Positions 12,568-21,175 of a stretch of 62,314 bases of DNA are shown piece after piece. The position numbers and the translations under genes are program-made. Source of the DNA: Synergistaceae bacterium (GTDB lineage Bacteria > Synergistota > Synergistia > Synergistales > Aminobacteriaceae); NCBI GenBank assembly GCA_031272035.1, contig JAISUO010000069.1, forward strand, positions 1-62,314. Direction: 5' to 3'. Under the pieces are notes generated by a model. That model was not told where the DNA came from and ran no database searches. It saw nothing but the letters and a program-made list of their open reading frames with translations. Numbering within the stretch: the stretch's first letter is position 1; each line of letters opens with the position of its first letter.

Positions 12568-12593
12568 AAACGGCGGCCTCAAGCCGCCGTTTT
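12568..12593. terminator. Intrinsic terminator after rpsA, shared with the convergent methyltransferase gene
   Basis: A perfect 10-base stem, AAACGGCGGC then loop CTCAA then GCCGCCGTTT, followed by T. It can serve both strands and touches the stop codon of the convergent gene at 12593. Confidence 0.88.
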
Positions 12594-13630
12594 CATGATG
12601 TCAGGACCCTGGATTCCTTCACCGTCTTGGTCATCGCGCGGATATTTTCTATCGGGGACGATGTGCTGAGTCCGCAGGCGGGCGCCACGATATCGACGCT
12701 CTCCCGCACCAGACGTCCGGTCTGTTCCACAATGTTTTCCGGCGTCTGGAATTCCAGCGCGTAAGTGCTCACATTGCCCATTGTAACGAGCTGCGGATAA
12801 TCATCTTTCAATTTTTTCAGGTTGACGACAGCGTCGGTGGATATGGCCTGTGAGCGTATTTCCGGTATATATTGGCGAACTGTCCTGATATCGCCGCATA
12901 TATGAACTATAACCCTTGCACCGGCCTCGTTCAGTGCGCCGACAAGCCTGTTAAGGCATGGAACGGCATATTTTTTGAATGAGGCCGGCCCCATTATTTC
13001 ACCCGTGGCGGTAGGGTCGGCGATCGAAATGAATGAAGCTCCGCTTTCTATCAACGCGCATCCGTAAGCAATCAGAAAATCCGTGACGTAATCCAAAAGC
13101 CTGGCTGAATTATCCCTGTCCTTTATCAAACCTTTCAGAAAAGTCATGGGTTCAACGATGGAAGCCGCGGTACTCACCGGCCCCGTCAGATTCCCTATGA
13201 CGGGAATATCACCGTGCTTCCCCGCCAGGTAATGGACAGCCCGCGTGACCGTTCCCACCCGGCCCGACTCGAGGGCTGTCCTGATATTCAGCCGTTCCAC
13301 TGAACCCGCGCTGGCGTATCTTTCCTCCCGTATTTTGGGCTCGCAGCCGAGCGTTCCGAAGTTTATCGCGCTGCCCAACACCTCCGCCTCCACAGTCATA
13401 CAGAACGGAAGTCCGTAATTTTCAAAACCGGTGAACTCGTTTACGTCCTCCGCCAAAGACGCCATCATCCGGTCGTCGTGATGCGCTTCCGGGAGAGTGT
13501 GCCCTCCTTTTTTCATAACGTCCACGACCGCGGCGTTCATCATTCCGCCGGGGCAAATGACAGGAGGACGGTCGGCCGTTTCCCTGTCGAGTACGCGGGC
13601 AAGTCGCTCTTTCGGACTGATGTCAGTCAT
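12593..13630 (-). CDS. MtaA/MtbA-type corrinoid:cofactor methyltransferase (uroporphyrinogen decarboxylase family)
   Basis: 345 residues. This family moves a methyl group between a corrinoid protein and a second acceptor (coenzyme M in methanogens, tetrahydrofolate or unknown in bacteria). The zinc ligands expected in MtbA are visible as His and Cys in VHICGD and Cys in VAPACGLSTSSP. Other family blocks are GNLTGPVSTAASIV and SIADPTATGEIMGP. It overlaps no neighbour and starts one base after the corrinoid protein gene (stop at 13632), so the two form an operon. No substrate-specific MtxB gene lies with them on this strand. Confidence 0.85.
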   Translation of the reverse strand: MTDISPKERLARVLDRETADRPPVICPGGMMNAAVVDVMKKGGHTLPEAHHDDRMMASLAEDVNEFTGFENYGLPFCMTVEAEVLGSAINFGTLGCEPKIREERYASAGSVERLNIRTALESGRVGTVTRAVHYLAGKHGDIPVIGNLTGPVSTAASIVEPMTFLKGLIKDRDNSARLLDYVTDFLIAYGCALIESGASFISIADPTATGEIMGPASFKKYAVPCLNRLVGALNEAGARVIVHICGDIRTVRQYIPEIRSQAISTDAVVNLKKLKDDYPQLVTMGNVSTYALEFQTPENIVEQTGRLVRESVDIVAPACGLSTSSPIENIRAMTKTVKESRVLTS

Positions 13631-13631
13631 C

Positions 13632-14315
13632 TTACTTTACCACCGGCGCACCGCACAAATTTCCGGCGAGTTTCACAGCTTCAGTCGCGTTTCCGGCATA
13701 ACCGTCCGCGCCTATTTTATCGGCGTACGCTTTCGAAACGGGACCTCCGCCCACCATGACCTTGAAACGCTCCCTGATATTCCGCGCATTCAATAAATCT
13801 ACCACTTTTCTCATTCCGGGCAGCGTTGTCGTCATCAGCGTCGAAAGGGCGATCACGTCCGCTTCGTTTTTTAGAGCTTCGTCAATGAACAGGTCCGGAG
13901 GAATATCGCGCCCGAGGTCCAGCACGTCGAAACCCGCCGCCTCCAGCATGATTTTCACGAGATTCTTGCCGATATCGTGCGTATCCCCCTCGACCACTCC
14001 TATGACAATCCTGCGTCTGACTCCGGCGCCGCTGCGTCTGATGTGCGGTTGGAGTATATTCAATCCGGCATACATGGCGTCGGAGCACATCAAAAGTTCG
14101 GGAACGAAATATTCTTCGTTTTCGAACAAATCTCCCGCCCGCCGCATTCCGTCCGAGAGACCTCTGTCTATGGCTTCATAGGCGTCGACGTTCTGGTCGA
14201 GGGCTTCGCGGGCCAGTTCGACGGTCGTGTCCTCATCCATACCGACGACCGCGTTCGACAGTCGGGCAAAAATATTTTCAGCGTCATCCGTCATGTTGTC
14301 ATCCATCATGTTCAT
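13632..14315 (-). CDS. Methyltransferase cognate corrinoid protein (B12-binding)
   Basis: 227 residues with the MtmC/MtbC layout. Residues about 15-90 form the helical cap domain. After them comes a Rossmann-like B12 domain with the base-off/His-on motif D-T-H-D-I-G (GVVEGDTHDIGKNLV), whose His binds cobalt, then VIALSTLMTTT and VMVGGGPVSKAYADKIGADGY. The first gene of the minus operon, it starts at ATG 14315 after GGGAGAG. Its promoter lies at 14388-14415, back to back with that of the plus operon. Confidence 0.92.
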   Translation of the reverse strand: MNMMDDNMTDDAENIFARLSNAVVGMDEDTTVELAREALDQNVDAYEAIDRGLSDGMRRAGDLFENEEYFVPELLMCSDAMYAGLNILQPHIRRSGAGVRRRIVIGVVEGDTHDIGKNLVKIMLEAAGFDVLDLGRDIPPDLFIDEALKNEADVIALSTLMTTTLPGMRKVVDLLNARNIRERFKVMVGGGPVSKAYADKIGADGYAGNATEAVKLAGNLCGAPVVK

Positions 14316-14387
14316 TGTCTCTCCCGTCGATTCCCGCAGCGGCAGGTATCACCACTATAATACATATCAAAATAATATATTTTATAA

Positions 14388-14415
14388 ATTATATAAATAT
14401 TTTTTTTCGTGTCAA
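14388..14415 (-). promoter_or_regulatory. Consensus sigma-70 promoter for the minus corrinoid operon
   Basis: On the minus strand, TTGACA (14415-14410), a 16-base spacer, then TATAAT (14393-14388). Both boxes match consensus exactly. The -35 box is one arm of the palindrome TGTCAA-CTA-TTGACA at 14410-14424. Confidence 0.75.
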
Positions 14416-14418
14416 CTA

Positions 14419-14446
14419 TTGACAAATTTTAAAAGCAAGATATTAT
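14419..14446 (+). promoter_or_regulatory. Sigma-70 promoter for the riboswitch-led MtmB-like operon
   Basis: TTGACA (14419-14424), a 16-base spacer, then TATTAT (14441-14446). The -35 box is the other arm of the palindrome at 14410-14424. A second perfect palindrome, AGATAT-T-ATATCT (14438-14450), covers the -10 region. The predicted start lies about 80 bases before the riboswitch. Confidence 0.7.
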
Positions 14447-14535
14447 ATCTAATAATTCATATTATTATTATATGATATATATAATATACTTAAGTTTGTT
14501 GGAATCTCCTGCTGAGATAAGTAATAAAAATATGA

Positions 14536-14705
14536 CGTATTAATTTTTTCAGGGAAGCCGGTGAAAATCCGGAGCAGCCCCGCTACTGTAATCGGAACGA
14601 AACTGCAGCATGTCATTGGCGTAATACGTAAAAGCCGAGAAGACGCGGGAGTAGGAAAAGAAAGAACGCCGTAAGCCAGGAAACCTGCCGCTCAAATTCC
14701 ACCCG
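14536..14705 (+). ncRNA. Cobalamin riboswitch upstream of the MtmB-like methyltransferase operon
   Basis: It contains the conserved cobalamin-aptamer blocks in order: GGGAAGCCGGTGAAAATCCGG at its core (paired CCGG...CCGG), AGCAGCCCCGCTACTGTAA, then a variable arm, GAGTAGGAAAAGAAAG-like material, and AAGCCAGGAAACCTGCC at the 3' side. Adenosyl- or methylcobalamin binding normally turns such RNAs off. It reads on the plus strand towards the corrinoid gene at 15094, nearly 400 bases away. No clean terminator with a U-run follows directly. Confidence 0.9.
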
Positions 14706-15093
14706 AGGGAACCCTGTTTAACATGGATATTTTATGGATATTTTTCGGTTTGTCAGCGCTTTTATCGATGTCTGTTTGTTTTGTGCGCCGAAATTTTCGC
14801 ACGTTACGCCAGATTGAATGTACGGCGCGCAAATCAGCAGAACAATCAATAATAGCCGGGAGGTGGGTTTTTTGTATCTGAGCGGTTTATTCTACCGGTT
14901 GAATATAATCAAGATTTTCCAAATATGTACCGATTGACGCATATTGTCCGCTTTTTCGGACGGATGCGGCGAAACGCGGTGCCTGTTTTATGAAAAGGGA
15001 CCCCGCATGCGGGGCAGCGTCCGGCATTTACGAATTTCCGGACGTGGTAAAAACCACGAAATAATCAACAACACGGAGAGGGGGTATTTTTAT
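14706..15093 (+). promoter_or_regulatory. Long structured leader between riboswitch and corrinoid gene
   Basis: No convincing gene lies here, but there are four consecutive perfect hairpins close to the ribosome site: GTCCG/CGGAC at 14946-14961, CCCCGCATGCGGGG at 15001-15014, CGTCCGG/CCGGACG at 15018-15044 and CGTGGT/ACCACG at 15043-15058. The last two overlap by two bases, so they compete at their junction. None has a U-run, which argues for control of translation or RNA stability. A 21-codon reading frame (TTG 14872 to TGA 14937) sits behind GGGAGGTGGG and might be a leader peptide. Confidence 0.5.
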
Positions 15094-15750
15094 ATGGCAA
15101 GGGACGAAAAGCAGCTTATCAGCGATATCAGCCAGGCCATTCTGGACTTTGACGAAGATGCCGCCATCAAGGCGGCAAAGGAAATCATCGCGGCGGGAGC
15201 AGACCCGGTAAAGGCTGTTTCGGCGATGGGAGACGCCCTTAACAGCCTCGGGGACCAGTTCCAGAAAATGGAGGTTTTCCTGCCCGAAATTATCCTGGCG
15301 TCCGACGCATTGAAGGCGGGACTTACCATTCTTGAACCGGAAATTCTGAAAAAACAGACCAACTCAGAATCCAGACCGGTAGTTATCATAGGCACCGTCA
15401 AGGGAGACGTGCATCAGGTAGGCAAGGATATGGTGTCCACAATGCTTCTCACAGCCGGATACGACGTTCGCGATCTCGGAGTGGACGTCGCGCCTTCCAG
15501 GTTTCTGGAAGAAGCCAATAAATTCGACGCGAAGGTCATAGCGGCTTCGGCGCTGATGTCTACCACGCTTCCGGTGCAAAAGGACCTGATCGATTTTCTC
15601 GAAGCCAAAAACGTGCGCAGGAACTATAAAGTGATTGTTGGCGGCGGCGTCGCGACGAAAGAATGGGCGGCCCGCATCGGAGCCGACGGCTACTCGCAGG
15701 ATGCGATCGGCGCTGTGCAGGTCGTGAATCAGCTTCTGGGGAGGTCGTAA
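15094..15750 (+). CDS. Methyltransferase cognate corrinoid protein, MtmC-like
   Basis: 218 residues, the usual MtmC length. It has the helical cap domain (about 1-85) and a B12 domain with D-V-H-Q-V-G (GTVKGDVHQVGKDMV), whose His is the lower cobalt ligand, then VIAASALMSTTLP and VIVGGGVATKEWAARIGADGY. ATG 15094 follows GGAGAGGGGG at 15075-15084; the open frame extends upstream to 14944 but through the structured leader and without homology. It lies three bases before the MtmB-like gene and is its probable partner, carrying the methyl group on cobalt. Confidence 0.94.
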   Translation: MARDEKQLISDISQAILDFDEDAAIKAAKEIIAAGADPVKAVSAMGDALNSLGDQFQKMEVFLPEIILASDALKAGLTILEPEILKKQTNSESRPVVIIGTVKGDVHQVGKDMVSTMLLTAGYDVRDLGVDVAPSRFLEEANKFDAKVIAASALMSTTLPVQKDLIDFLEAKNVRRNYKVIVGGGVATKEWAARIGADGYSQDAIGAVQVVNQLLGRS

Positions 15751-15753
15751 AAG

Positions 15754-17166
15754 ATGGGACACGGAACGAAAGGAAAATTCATAGAATATTGGGGACGCGG
15801 GGAAACGGGTCCCATAGCTTTTCAAAAAGAATTCGACACGAAGATCTTTTGGCCCAGACTGAAAGAACTCACTAAAAAATACAGAATCGAATTCGACCCC
15901 AAGCGAACGGTTCCGACCGACGATGACGAGTTGGACGCGATTTGGAAGGCCGGCTACGAACTTCTGCTGGACGTGGGTATTTTGAACACCACAACGGAAA
16001 GAATAATTAAGTTCAGCCCGGAAGAGGTAGACACCGCGCTGAAAAACCTTCCGAGTTCCGCCACGATAGGCGAGGGCAGCGATTCCATCACGGTCGGCCA
16101 CCGAGGGTTCGAAGACTACGACAGCGGGCCGACTCCGGTAGGGACGATGGGACGCATCCTGGGGCCTATTTCCGAGGACCTTTATGCCAAGATAGCGCTG
16201 AGTTTCGCGCAGGAACCTCTGGTGGACTACGTTCATTTTCAGGGCGTCACTCCCGAGATAAACGGAGTGCCCGTAAAACCGGGGTCGCCCTTCGAACTGA
16301 TTGCCGAAATCAACCGTGTGGCTACCGTCAAGGATGTTCTTCGCAGAGTGGGCAGACCGGGTTTGAGCGACGGAGCGAGCACGCCCGTCAACCTTCAGGC
16401 TGAAATAGCGGCCGCCAATATCAACTGGGGAGTCGGAAAGGGCGACGTGCGTCACGTTTACGTGATGCCGCATCTGAAAACCGACTATGACCAGATGACA
16501 CGCGCTTATTTCTGGCACCAGTACGGAGCAAACCTGTGGGGTATTCTCCAGGCTTACATCGGCGGTGCGGCGGGAGGTCCGGCAACATCAGTCGTCAACG
16601 GAGTCGCGGACCTGATAGCCTACACTGTGCTCTACGAACCTACCCAGCTCGGCACTTGGCCAACCGACGCGCTCTATTTCAGCAATTCCAGCAAATACGC
16701 GCTGTATGTCGCCAATTTCGGCGGCGCGGCGTTCTCGAAACATACCAACTTCACCGCCCTCATCGGCGCGGCGTGGCAGATGACGGCGGGAATAGGCAGC
16801 GAGGAGTACTTCTGGGAAACGGCCGCCGGAGCGATCGGCAGCGCCACGTTGGGCTTCTGGGTCGCCGGGGGAACCGGACATCAGAGCGGAGGGCTCGACC
16901 AAGCCGGAGGGCTCGGCGCCAGGTTCGCGGCGGAAGTGGGCCGGGCGGTCGGCAAAGCGCGCTTCACGAGGGCGAGGGCCAACGAGCTCGTTCAGAAGAT
17001 TCTGCCAAAATATCAGCCCTACATCGACGATCGTACGCTCCACACGAGAGGCGGCGATTTCAGGGAAGTGTACGATCTGAAGACCGTTCAGCCGAAGCCG
17101 GAATATTTGGCCATATACAATAAAGTCAAGGCGGAGCTGAGAGATCTGGGGCTTCCGATCGACTGA
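15754..17166 (+). CDS. MtmB-family (monomethylamine methyltransferase-like) protein without pyrrolysine
   Basis: 470 residues. It aligns over its whole length, by eye, with methanogen MtmB: VPTDDDELDAIWKAGYELLL (MtmB has IPTDKDMMEKLFKAGFEMLL), the GRPG turn before the active site, and the C-terminal YDLKTVQPKPEY...LRDLGL (MtmB YDVKTVTPTEEY...LEDLGL). In MtmB the GRPGMGV motif is followed by pyrrolysine (residue 202, amber codon); here the equivalent GRPGLSD is followed by Gly207 and the gene has no in-frame TAG. Non-pyrrolysine homologues of MttB demethylate quaternary amines such as glycine betaine; a non-pyrrolysine MtmB must use a different substrate or chemistry. The corrinoid protein lies upstream and the activator downstream. 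Confidence 0.85.
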   Translation: MGHGTKGKFIEYWGRGETGPIAFQKEFDTKIFWPRLKELTKKYRIEFDPKRTVPTDDDELDAIWKAGYELLLDVGILNTTTERIIKFSPEEVDTALKNLPSSATIGEGSDSITVGHRGFEDYDSGPTPVGTMGRILGPISEDLYAKIALSFAQEPLVDYVHFQGVTPEINGVPVKPGSPFELIAEINRVATVKDVLRRVGRPGLSDGASTPVNLQAEIAAANINWGVGKGDVRHVYVMPHLKTDYDQMTRAYFWHQYGANLWGILQAYIGGAAGGPATSVVNGVADLIAYTVLYEPTQLGTWPTDALYFSNSSKYALYVANFGGAAFSKHTNFTALIGAAWQMTAGIGSEEYFWETAAGAIGSATLGFWVAGGTGHQSGGLDQAGGLGARFAAEVGRAVGKARFTRARANELVQKILPKYQPYIDDRTLHTRGGDFREVYDLKTVQPKPEYLAIYNKVKAELRDLGLPID

Positions 17167-17173
17167 GGGACGA

Positions 17174-19135
17174 ATGTCCGGCGTACGGAACGAACATCAT
17201 GTGACCTTCCAGCCCTCGGGCATACGGGGAACGGTTGCGGAAGGAAAAACGCTGTTGCGGGCGGCTCAGGACCTCGGTGTTTTCATCGAAGCCGCCTGCG
17301 GCGGCGATAAAAAGTGCGGCAAATGTCGAGTGACAGCGGAAAACGGATGCCAGGGCGCGCTCTCGCCGGTAACTCCGGAGGAAACCCGTCTGTTGAGTGC
17401 AGATGAGCTTATGGCGGGCTACCGTCTGGCGTGCTGCGCCCGGATAACCGGCAGCGTATCGGTCACGGTACCGGAGGAAAGCCGCGGAACCAAACAGACG
17501 GTTCTGGAGAACGGCAGTTTGAGAAACTACAGGGTAAACCCGGCGGTGAGGAACTATTACGTAACGATGGAACCTCCCAGCCTCGAAGATTCGTTGTCCG
17601 ATCGGGCGCGGCTCGTCGCGGCGCTGTCGAGTCAGCATGGCGTGGGTGGGGTTTCCGTGGACTTTGTGACGCTCAGGTCTCTGCCGGGAGCGTTGCGCGA
17701 CGGCGATTGGAAGGTTACGGCGACGGTCTGGCAGGGCAGGGAAATTATCCGCGTCACCCCAGGAACCGCGCCCGACGCTTTCGGCGTCGCCTTCGACATC
17801 GGAACCACAACCGTCGTCGCCTTCCTGTGCAACCTGCGAACCGGGGAGGTTTTGGCCCAGGCCTCCCGGATGAACCCGCAAATCGTATACGGAGAGGACG
17901 TCCTGGCGCGTATCGCGTACATAATGAATCAGGAGGATGGACTGTCGATACTCAGGAAAGCCATCCTTGAAGCCGTCGACGATCTTTTGTCCGAATTGGC
18001 GGAGCAGGCCGGAATCGTCGCTGAACAGATAGACGAAGCCGTTCTGGTTTACAACACCGTCATGCATCATATCGCCCTCGGCATCGACCCGTCTTACGTT
18101 GGCCGGCTGCCGTTCGTGCCAGCGGAAAACGCGCCTCTCGACGTAAAAGCCCGGGATTTCGGGATCAAAATCAATCCGGCCGGCAATGTTCATTCGCTGC
18201 CGATAGAGGCCGGTTTCGTCGGTCCGGACAACGTGGCTGTGCTGATTGCCGAGGAGCCCTACAGGAGCGGCGAAACGCAATTGATAATAGATATCGGCAC
18301 CAACGGGGAATTGGATCTGGGGAACAGAGACCGTTTGCTCTGCACTTCATGCGCAACCGGTCCCGCTTTCGAGGGAGCGCAGATCAGGTTCGGTATGCGC
18401 GCCGCGAATGGCGCTATCGAGCACGTCCGGATAGATCCGGCGACTCTTGAACCGGAATATAAGGTCATAGGCAGCGACGAATGGTTTCCGCGAAGCGGAG
18501 AGACAGGCGCCAGGGGTATCTGCGGGTCGGGCATCATCGACGCGATAGCCGAGATGTTCAAAACGGGAATCATTCTTCCGTCCGGACGATTGAACATGGA
18601 GGCGAGGACCGCACGGGTGAGAAAAGGGGACGATGGAAAATCCGAATATGTGCTGGCCCGGGCGGAGGAAACATCGACAGGCAAAGATATCTCCGTCACT
18701 CAGGCGGACGTGCGAGCCGTGCAGCTCGCGAAGGCAGCCATATACACAGGAGCGGCGTACCTGATGGAAAAATTCGGGGGTGGTCGCATATCCAGCGTTA
18801 AACTGGCGGGGGCTTTCGGAAGTTACATAAATCAGGAGAGCGCCCGCCTGATAGGGATGTTTCCCGACTGCCCGCCGGAAAACGTCACAGCTGTGGGAAA
18901 CGCGGCCGGAGACGGGGCGAAGCTGGCCCTTCTGGACAGGGACAAACGGGATGAAGCGGCGCGGACGGCCCGACGCGTCGAATTTGTCGAAACAGCGGCG
19001 GAACCGGATTTCCAGCGCCGCTTTATGGACGCGATGACGTTCCCTCACGCGAAAGACAGGTTTCCCCATCTGGAAAACATACTTCAAAATATTCCGTCTT
19101 TCGGAGCGGAGCGCAAACGAGAGGCGAAACGATGA
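17174..19135 (+). CDS. Corrinoid-activating ATPase with N-terminal 2Fe-2S domain (RACo/RamA functional type)
   Basis: 653 residues. Residues about 8-105 form a plant-type ferredoxin domain with the 2Fe-2S ligands C42, C48, C51 (ACGGDKKCGKC) and C87 (RLACCARI). The rest is the ASKHA-type domain of the DUF4445 family, with the nucleotide-binding loops GVAFDIGTTTVVAF and LIIDIGTNGELDLG and the KLAGAFGSYIN region. Such proteins use ATP to push an electron onto inactive cob(II)alamin, restoring cob(I)alamin in corrinoid proteins. Methanogen RamA carries 4Fe-4S ferredoxin motifs instead; this one resembles the RACo type. It starts seven bases after the MtmB-like gene. Confidence 0.92.
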   Translation: MSGVRNEHHVTFQPSGIRGTVAEGKTLLRAAQDLGVFIEAACGGDKKCGKCRVTAENGCQGALSPVTPEETRLLSADELMAGYRLACCARITGSVSVTVPEESRGTKQTVLENGSLRNYRVNPAVRNYYVTMEPPSLEDSLSDRARLVAALSSQHGVGGVSVDFVTLRSLPGALRDGDWKVTATVWQGREIIRVTPGTAPDAFGVAFDIGTTTVVAFLCNLRTGEVLAQASRMNPQIVYGEDVLARIAYIMNQEDGLSILRKAILEAVDDLLSELAEQAGIVAEQIDEAVLVYNTVMHHIALGIDPSYVGRLPFVPAENAPLDVKARDFGIKINPAGNVHSLPIEAGFVGPDNVAVLIAEEPYRSGETQLIIDIGTNGELDLGNRDRLLCTSCATGPAFEGAQIRFGMRAANGAIEHVRIDPATLEPEYKVIGSDEWFPRSGETGARGICGSGIIDAIAEMFKTGIILPSGRLNMEARTARVRKGDDGKSEYVLARAEETSTGKDISVTQADVRAVQLAKAAIYTGAAYLMEKFGGGRISSVKLAGAFGSYINQESARLIGMFPDCPPENVTAVGNAAGDGAKLALLDRDKRDEAARTARRVEFVETAAEPDFQRRFMDAMTFPHAKDRFPHLENILQNIPSFGAERKREAKR

Positions 19136-19809
19136 GAGCGGCGGCGCGCACGAAGATCCTGGCCTGCGAGGTCATGAAAAAAGAGCTCGAAAAAATCGCG
19201 CGCGAAAAAAATCTGAACGCCGATATCAGTTTCATCGAGCTCGGTTTGCACCTCGTACCGAAAAAACTGCACAACAAACTCCAGGAAGCGCTGGACACCT
19301 GTTCAGGGTACGATCGCGTCATCCTCGCTTTTGGGTTGTGCGGCGGCTCGGCGAGCGGCATCCGGAACGGCTGCGCCTCTCTGATCATCCCGAAATTCCA
19401 CGACTGCGTTCCAATACTGTTGGGAAGCTTGGTGCAATTCGAACGGTATCAGAAAGAAGAACCTGGCACTTACTACTTATGTCGGGGATGGGTGGAGGGT
19501 GGACAGGGAATTTTACACGAATACGAAGCCTGGCGCGATAAATACGGTGAGGAGAAGGCGAAAAAATTGCAAAAAATCATGTACGCGAATTATCGGCGGC
19601 TGATATATATTCATTCCCCCGTCGCCTGTGGGACGGATTTACGCAGTCACGCCGGAGAATCGGCCCGAATGCTGAATTTGGAATACGGCGAAACTGTCGG
19701 GGACTTGGGAATCATGGAAAAAATTCTCGCCGGACCGTGGGACGACCCGGATTTGTTCGTCAACATAAGTCCTCACGGCGTCGTCACGGAAGAACATTTC
19801 GGAATATGA
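19132..19809 (+). CDS. DUF1638 family protein
   Basis: 225 residues, overlapping the activator gene by four bases. It matches DUF1638: KILACEVMKKEL at the start, FIELGLHLVPKKLHNKLQEA, VILAFGLCGGSASGI, and HDCVPILLGS. The cysteines in ACEV, GLCGG, HDC and LCRGW could bind a metal or a methyl group. DUF1638 genes are often found with corrinoid methyltransferases, but the role is unknown. Its place inside the MtmB-like operon supports a function in that methyl-transfer pathway. Confidence 0.88.
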   Translation: MRAAARTKILACEVMKKELEKIAREKNLNADISFIELGLHLVPKKLHNKLQEALDTCSGYDRVILAFGLCGGSASGIRNGCASLIIPKFHDCVPILLGSLVQFERYQKEEPGTYYLCRGWVEGGQGILHEYEAWRDKYGEEKAKKLQKIMYANYRRLIYIHSPVACGTDLRSHAGESARMLNLEYGETVGDLGIMEKILAGPWDDPDLFVNISPHGVVTEEHFGI

Positions 19810-20840
19810 ACGCATCGACGAAAAGAGTTCTGGCGGCTTTACGCAATGAAACGACGGATTGTACGCCGGTAATAAGCGTGTGCCAGCACGCGACCTACGA
19901 CGTTATGGAACGGGTGAACGCTCCCTGGCCCCAGGCTCACGGCGACCCGGAAATGATGGCGGCTTTATCGGGCGCCGGAGCTGAAATACTGGGGCTGGAC
20001 GCCGTGCGCGTTCCGTATTGTCAAACCGTTGAGGCTGAGGCGTTGGGAGCCGTGATAAAAAGCGGCGGAGCTCTCCATCTGCCCAGTATCGCGGAACACC
20101 CGTTCAAAATTGGAGACGATCCGGAATTTCCCCGGGACTTTTTGCAATTGGGCAGGATCCCTGTCGTTCTCAGGGCTGTCGAACTTATCAAAAAACGTTT
20201 TGACGGCAGCGCTGCCGTCATGGCCGGGTTGTGCGGACCTTTCAGCATCGCCGCCAGTCTTCTGGGTATCACTGTGCTGCTGAAAACAGCATATAAAAAA
20301 CCGGAAGCGATAACCCCGTTTCTCGAACTGGGACTGAAATGCGGATCGGCCCTCGCCGAAGCTTACAGGCAGGCTGGCGCAGATGTCATAGTGATTGAGG
20401 ATATGATGGCCTCGCTGGACATGATAAGCCCAAAAATGTACCGGGAAATCGTTGCCGGATACGAAACCAGGCTGGAGGAAGCCGTTAAATTGCCATCCAT
20501 CATCCACATCTGCGGCAAACTGGACGGTATCATAGCCGATGTAGCTCGGACAGGAGCGAACGCCGTCAGTGTGGAGTCCTCCGTAAACATTCCCGCGGCA
20601 CGGGAAACGCTCGCGGGATACGGGCTCTGTACCTCCATAGCCGGAGCGGTGCATCCTATGGAGGTTTTGCTTGAAGGTACGCCCGAGGATGTGACTTCGG
20701 CCGTAGAGAGCTCCATTGAGGACGGCGCGGCGCTGATTTCACCCGGATGCGCCGTGGCGCCGGGCACGCCGACTGAAAATTTGATCGCGATGGTAGAAGC
20801 GGGACACAGATACCGCCTTCGTTTCACGGAAACGAAATAA
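19806..20840 (+). CDS. MtbA/MtaA-type methyltransferase (uroporphyrinogen decarboxylase family)
   Basis: 344 residues from ATG 19806, which overlaps the DUF1638 stop by four bases. This is the second such gene of the island. The zinc ligands are visible as His and Cys in IIHICGKLDG and Cys in ISPGCAVAPGTPTEN; other family blocks are AGLCGPFSIAASL and VIVIEDMMASLDMISP. In the simplest reading it takes the methyl group from the corrinoid protein of this operon and passes it to a pterin or thiol acceptor. Last gene of the riboswitch-led operon; the next riboswitch starts about 155 bases on. Confidence 0.88.
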   Translation: MNASTKRVLAALRNETTDCTPVISVCQHATYDVMERVNAPWPQAHGDPEMMAALSGAGAEILGLDAVRVPYCQTVEAEALGAVIKSGGALHLPSIAEHPFKIGDDPEFPRDFLQLGRIPVVLRAVELIKKRFDGSAAVMAGLCGPFSIAASLLGITVLLKTAYKKPEAITPFLELGLKCGSALAEAYRQAGADVIVIEDMMASLDMISPKMYREIVAGYETRLEEAVKLPSIIHICGKLDGIIADVARTGANAVSVESSVNIPAARETLAGYGLCTSIAGAVHPMEVLLEGTPEDVTSAVESSIEDGAALISPGCAVAPGTPTENLIAMVEAGHRYRLRFTETK

Positions 20841-20995
20841 GCAAACAGACTGTTGAGCCGAGAGAAAGCTGTTTTCTGCCAGCTGCATACTGGCGGGCTG
20901 GCCGCATTCATAAGATTGTACTTTGCAGAGACTTTAAATCAAAAATACGTATCCTGAAGAAGTCTCTGTGATGATAGAATGGTGTACAACAAAAC

Positions 20996-21150
20996 AGGAA
21001 CGCGTTTCGACAAAGGGAATCCGGTGCGAATCCGGAGCGGCCCCGCCACTGTAAACAGGACGAAATCGCGAAAAATCACTGCCTGGATAAACCAGGCGGG
21101 AAGATGCGAGAGTAGGATGAGTGAAAGTCAGGAGACCGGTCGAGATGTTT
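20996..21150 (+). ncRNA. Cobalamin riboswitch upstream of the B12 uptake operon
   Basis: A close match to the cobalamin aptamer: GGGAATCCGGTGCGAATCCGG, AGCGGCCCCGCCACTGTAA, CACTGCCTGGATAAACCAGGCGGG-type arm, GAGTAGGATGAGTGAAAG-type block, and GTCAGGAGACCGG at the 3' end. It controls btuFDC-exbBD-tonB-btuB. An 8-base inverted repeat AGAGACTT/AAGTCTCT (20927-20967) lies just before it. Confidence 0.95.
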
Positions 21151-21175
21151 TGCCTTAAAATTGCGCGTGGGCGTA

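Follow-up and report, generated by a model that had tools for sequence, protein, structure and literature searches.

The window analysed here, a 62,314-nucleotide contig of a Synergistaceae bacterium (JAISUO010000069.1, assembly GCA_031272035.1), carries a genuine class-I cobalamin riboswitch at positions 14500-14706 of the + strand, upstream of an operon for corrinoid-dependent methyl transfer. The sensor part is ordinary. The operon is a new target relative to the literature searched, and the expression platform is atypical and putative. Judging from the sequence, the riboswitch before this acquired operon is probably functional. In our preferred reading, to which we give a probability of about 0.45, it would be an adenosyl-corrinoid OFF-switch that acts at the level of translation, via a distal kissing loop, on a horizontally acquired operon.

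The first-pass annotation had placed a cobalamin riboswitch at 14536-15093, and a covariance-model scan bears this out. cmscan returns a full-length RF00174 match at 14502-14706 (+), with 88.3 bits (gathering score 31.5, E 1.8e-20, model positions 1-189). After clan competition RF00174 alone is kept at this site, RF01482 and RF01689 being out. Because RF00174 is the best of its clan, the aptamer is assigned to class I, which answers the question of class raised by the first reading. P1, read from the sequence, is a perfect 6-bp helix between UGGAAU (14500-14505) and AUUCCA (14696-14701). Since P1 and the cmscan match begin at 14500-14502, the true start lies about 35 nt before 14536. The L5 loop AGCCCC is found at 14576-14581 (+) and the B12 box at about 14674-14689 (+). 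Full-length aptamer, B12 box, P1 and kissing-type L5 AGCCCC are all as in RF00174 class-I riboswitches such as that of Bacillus subtilis btuF. A sigma-70-like promoter, TTGACA-16-TATTAT, is located at 14419-14446 (+), where 11 of 12 positions match the consensus by which it was identified. Scanning 14310-15140 for a second aptamer or another RNA family gave none credible. The genome holds three RF00174 elements: the present one, one at 20991-21158 (+, 95.3 bits) and one on contig C28, before mutAB. The element at 20991-21158 precedes btuF-btuD-btuC and tonB/btuB genes, and has a canonical P13 (TTGCGCGTGGGCGTAA) and a terminator-like hairpin with a U-tract.

Profile matches of all five operon products confirm the earlier proposal that the riboswitch stands before genes requiring B12. 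The first gene (15094-15750) encodes an MtgC/MtbC-like corrinoid protein (PF02310 and PF02607; NF047995/TIGR02370 below cut-off). It is followed, also on the + strand, by genes for a non-pyrrolysine MtmB-family methyltransferase (15754-17166; PF05369, E 1.6e-68; MtmB1, PDB 1tv2/1l2q, E about 4e-46), a RACo/RamA-type corrinoid reductive activase (17174-19135; PF14574, PF17651, PF17650 and Fer2), a DUF1638 protein (19132-19809; PF07796) and an MtaA/CmuA-family methyltransferase (19803-20840; NF004889 and TIGR01463 above cut-off). Because it encodes a corrinoid protein, an MtmB-family methyltransferase, an activase and an MtaA-like protein, the operon needs corrinoid. The MtmB-like reading frame contains no in-frame stop or UAG, and RPG-L-S-D-G occupies the pyrrolysine site (position 202). 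RPG(L/F/M)xD(G/K) is found there in the window protein and in all 18 aligned relatives. A bacterial clade of such non-Pyl MtmB-family methyltransferases (RPG-x-x-DG/DK) comprises one Synergistota genome, Selenomonadaceae, Nitrospira MAGs, Desulfovibrio and Ca. Formimonas (L008-L030). Its nearest neighbour with a demonstrated function in the literature searched is MtqB (tetramethylammonium/choline). MtqBC of Methanococcoides methylutens Q3c, a non-Pyl MtmB homologue, uses tetramethylammonium/choline (PMC13044021); in MtqBC, which is archaeal, as in the window, an MtmB-family methyltransferase lacking pyrrolysine lies beside its corrinoid protein. Divergently transcribed genes on the - strand encode a second corrinoid protein (13632-14315) and a second MtaA-like protein (12593-13630), both identified by profile matches. 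Their promoter, TTGACA-16-TATAAT (14415-14388, -), matches 12 of 12 consensus positions. The -35 TTGACA elements at 14415 (-) and 14419 (+) nearly touch, and these back-to-back, near-consensus promoters suggest that the two halves of the methyltransferase set are controlled together.

The long leader at 14707-15093 (+) is the putative expression platform. From the end of the aptamer to the ATG at 15094 there are 387 nt, in line with the roughly 390 bases given at first pass, and the Shine-Dalgarno (SD) sequence of the corrinoid-protein gene, GGAGAGGGGG, is at 15075-15084 (+). On the + strand, no terminator-like site was found in 14300-15100. A promoter bypassing the aptamer had been raised earlier as a concern; 14707-15093 contains no + strand promoter-like site. 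The four perfect hairpins described from the first reading all exist, within 14946-15058 (+): GTCCG/CGGAC (14946-14961), CCCCG-CATG-CGGGG (15001-15014), CGTCCGG/CCGGACG (15018-15044) and CGTGG/CCACG (15043-15058), of which the third and fourth share 2 nt. The view that this platform is unusual stands as regards its architecture, with neither a proximal P13/L13 nor an intrinsic terminator, but does not extend to its folding. Region 14707-15075 is about as stable as its dinucleotide shuffles (z -1.15, 16 of 100 shuffles as good), so its richness in hairpins does not by itself exceed chance. An insertion element was considered as the origin of the leader and rejected, as the window contains only one copy and 83 family genomes gave nothing beyond short, chance-level hits.

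A long leader without an intrinsic terminator would fit a uORF-coupled OFF-switch, as in Mycobacterium tuberculosis ppe2. The riboswitch would then control a 52-codon uORF (14723-14881), whose translation would permit downstream expression or prevent premature termination. A B12 riboswitch of such logic is known (PMC11260477), and an SD-like GAGGG (14708-14712) abuts the aptamer directly after P1. However, codon usage in the uORF scores -0.37 per codon, where the window genes score +0.2 to +0.4, and an ATG ORF of at least 53 aa turns up in 10% of shuffled leaders. We consider this coupling very unlikely. As a coding gene, the uORF (ATG start, hydrophobic N-terminus) was dropped, as it carries no codon-usage signal. 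The M. tuberculosis metE/ppe2 riboswitches with uORFs share with the window element an atypical platform, translational control (putative in the window) and a possible small leader ORF, but ppe2 is class IIb (PMC11260477) and the window uORF comes without coding evidence.

In class-I cobalamin switches, the expression platform contains a hairpin whose L13 forms a kissing contact with L5 (PMC9600662). The window element was compared with 37 family riboswitches having the same (G/A)GCCCC type of L5. In at least 33 of these 37, the L13 partner GGGC follows the aptamer by no more than 40 nt, and in 24 of the 33 it is part of a hairpin loop on a stem of 4 bp or more. Three of the four without GGGC (L081, L089 and L094) show a GGG-rich hairpin loop variant instead; the fourth (L124) is a sub-threshold aptamer. 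Downstream of the window aptamer there is no GGGC within 40 nt and no P13 in the first 150 nt. The comparison with other Synergistota leaders proposed at first pass thus sets this platform apart from the proximal-GGGC type of 33 of 37 relatives, but provides no homologous leader: 83 family genomes contain no homologue of 14707-15093 beyond chance-level short matches.

A candidate distal L13, GCGGGGC at 15009-15015 (+), is complementary to L5 GCCCCGC (14577-14583), with GGGGC at 15011-15015 as the predicted kissing core. This is the best L5 duplex in the leader, and its -19.2 kcal/mol is attained by 0.7% of dinucleotide shuffles. The complement at 15011-15015 lies about 305 nt from the aptamer, within the CCCCG/CGGGG hairpin and 60 nt before the SD. 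Class-I switches of the B. subtilis btuF kind differ from the window element in this respect, the latter having no P13/L13 just after P1, no terminator and its L5 complement some 305 nt away. The usual P1-P13 spacing is 5-16 nt, and a spacing of about 300 nt is without example among the relatives examined. Taken on its own, the proposal that the kissing-loop partner has moved some 300 nt downstream, as far as the ribosome binding site, and that L5 and L13 thereby form a long-range translational switch, possibly of the ON type, is quite doubtful.

The phylogenetic distribution of the operon points to a foreign origin. At E <= 1e-80, an MtmB orthologue is present in 1 of 188 phylum genomes searched, the one studied here. 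Selenomonas, Schwartzia and other Selenomonadaceae have an MtmB orthologue at 81-83% identity and, next to it, homologues of its partner genes in differing arrangements. None of these Selenomonadaceae operons has a cobalamin riboswitch. The upstream neighbour in the window is rpsA, which is followed by other genes in two congeners. By sequence, the closest aptamers belong to btu import riboswitches of the family, with 80% over 108 nt for L135. We infer that the operon was gained by horizontal transfer and then acquired a host-type riboswitch. In the literature searched, with subscription journals outside its scope, we found no report of a cobalamin riboswitch before corrinoid methyltransferases. 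The Selenomonadaceae leaders contain a conserved small hairpin of their own, GGCUGAUCAGAAAGACUGAAGG / AACUGACUGGAUAACCAGAGG, whose stem bases vary on both sides and which runs straight into a terminator-like hairpin. In L014, for example, it precedes the mtaA-like gene by about 100 nt, and in L008, L011-L013, L015, L017, L018 and L020 it lies 5' of the corrinoid gene; it has no Rfam 15 match at gathering score. Hairpin and terminator are possibly an undescribed attenuator of methyltransferase operons.

Such a history could also have left a decoupled aptamer, captured from a btu-type riboswitch, together with the promoter region, during rearrangement of the operon. Its fold would be kept with no working platform, and B12 would have little effect. 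The absence of a P13 where at least 33 of 37 comparable riboswitches have their GGGC, the chance-level structure of a leader unique to this genome, the donor-side operons free of cobalamin riboswitches and the resemblance to aptamers of btu import operons all favour this explanation. Yet the 88.3 bits are close to those of the other two elements in the genome (95.3 and 92.7) and P1 is perfect, whereas an idle aptamer should have decayed, given operon divergence to 81-83% from relatives. A significant L5 complement also adjoins the SD. We regard decoupling as rather unlikely.

In the OFF-switch that we prefer, binding of adenosyl-corrinoid would lower expression of the methyltransferase operon. 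In the bound aptamer, L5 GCCCC (14577-14581) would kiss GGGGC (15011-15015) about 300 nt downstream. The CCCCG-CATG-CGGGG hairpin would compete with this contact, and the kiss would open it and free CCCC at 15001-15004, which is also complementary to the SD. The freed CCCC could then pair with GGGGU (15081-15085) of the SD. Masking of the SD would reduce translation initiation of the corrinoid protein, the rest of the operon following by coupling. The logic would be cofactor-dose compensation, with more apo-protein made under corrinoid shortage and less under abundance. The genome encodes a cobalamin adenosyltransferase, so imported corrinoid can be adenosylated. In folding models, predicted SD unpairedness is 0.48 for the free RNA and 0.24 with the aptamer core enforced, where ACCCC and UUUCCG pair with the SD. 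Blocking both L5 and the distal L13, as a mimic of the kiss, gives 0.43. Because this value is near that of the free RNA, the model gives SD masking no clean support, and the three values lean weakly towards an OFF-switch. Pairing of the SD to the leader was not retained as a significant element, since 72% of shuffles are as good as its best pairing.

The opposite direction has also to be weighed. Adenosyl-corrinoid could raise expression via a non-canonical platform, the operon being made only if its cofactor is available. The operon does require corrinoid, and relatives have OFF-type platforms with P13 and a terminator, unlike the one here. When folded without constraints, the RNA has its SD about half paired and its B12 box in a duplex with 14860-14873, which leaves room for an ON-type rearrangement. 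However, the B12-box/14860-14873 duplex is matched by 20% of shuffles, and enforcing the aptamer makes the SD less accessible, not more. The anti-B12-box stem, CAGGAAACCUGCC with GGUGGGUUUUUUG at 14860-14873, was dropped as an ON mechanism on this shuffle result. Repression of a B12-dependent target, discussed below, also speaks against an ON-switch, which we judge unlikely.

The usual account of cobalamin riboswitches is that they shut off B12 synthesis, B12 import and B12-free isozymes. From the nature of the target, the first-pass annotation had considered an ON-switch or the sensing of another corrinoid state. This inference is not supported by similar cases. In seven genomes from five genera of the family, cobalamin riboswitches precede mutAB, encoding methylmalonyl-CoA mutase (L065, L068, L093, L110, L114, L122 and L123). 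L065 is the C28 element of the present genome and the six others are from family relatives. Their canonical P13 lies 10-16 nt past the aptamer and is of the same type as at B12 import genes. Several end in a terminator; in others the leader is short and runs right up to the ribosome site. The window element shares phylum, aptamer class and a B12-dependent target with these riboswitches, but not their canonical P13 or terminators. In Veillonella parvula, the mutA riboswitch is one of 38 through which corrinoids repressed GFP (Kennedy et al. 2022, PMC9600662). Together, the mutAB riboswitches and the V. parvula reporter provide precedent for repression of a B12-dependent enzyme. Both the V. parvula element and ours precede such an enzyme, although the former serves methylmalonyl-CoA mutase through a standard P13 platform and the latter a methylamine-type methyltransferase operon. 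In L066, L076 and L080, cobalamin riboswitches are also found before the B12-independent class III ribonucleotide reductase NrdD, the classical isozyme case.

In Listeria, B12 sensing is likewise tied to B12-dependent catabolism. At aspocR/pdu and eut the B12 riboswitch sits on a regulatory RNA, and induction by B12 is indirect, by way of an antisense or decoy RNA. The window aptamer instead lies directly upstream of its operon, on the same strand; the Listeria pdu case is mentioned in PMC11575231.

CbiC and CbiD are absent from the genome, and the bacterium is probably a corrinoid auxotroph that imports corrinoids. As two congeners have CbiD, behind cobalamin riboswitches, a recent loss of corrinoid synthesis is likely. 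With the window operon and mutAB, cobalamin riboswitches stand before B12-needing enzymes in a bacterium seemingly unable to make B12. A foreign operon appears to have been brought under a host-type riboswitch, which offers a clean test case for an L5-L13 contact working over 300 nt. If the switch represses, cofactor-dose compensation would be a wider use of cobalamin riboswitches; an activating switch would be a rare case of direct ON-switching by cobalamin.
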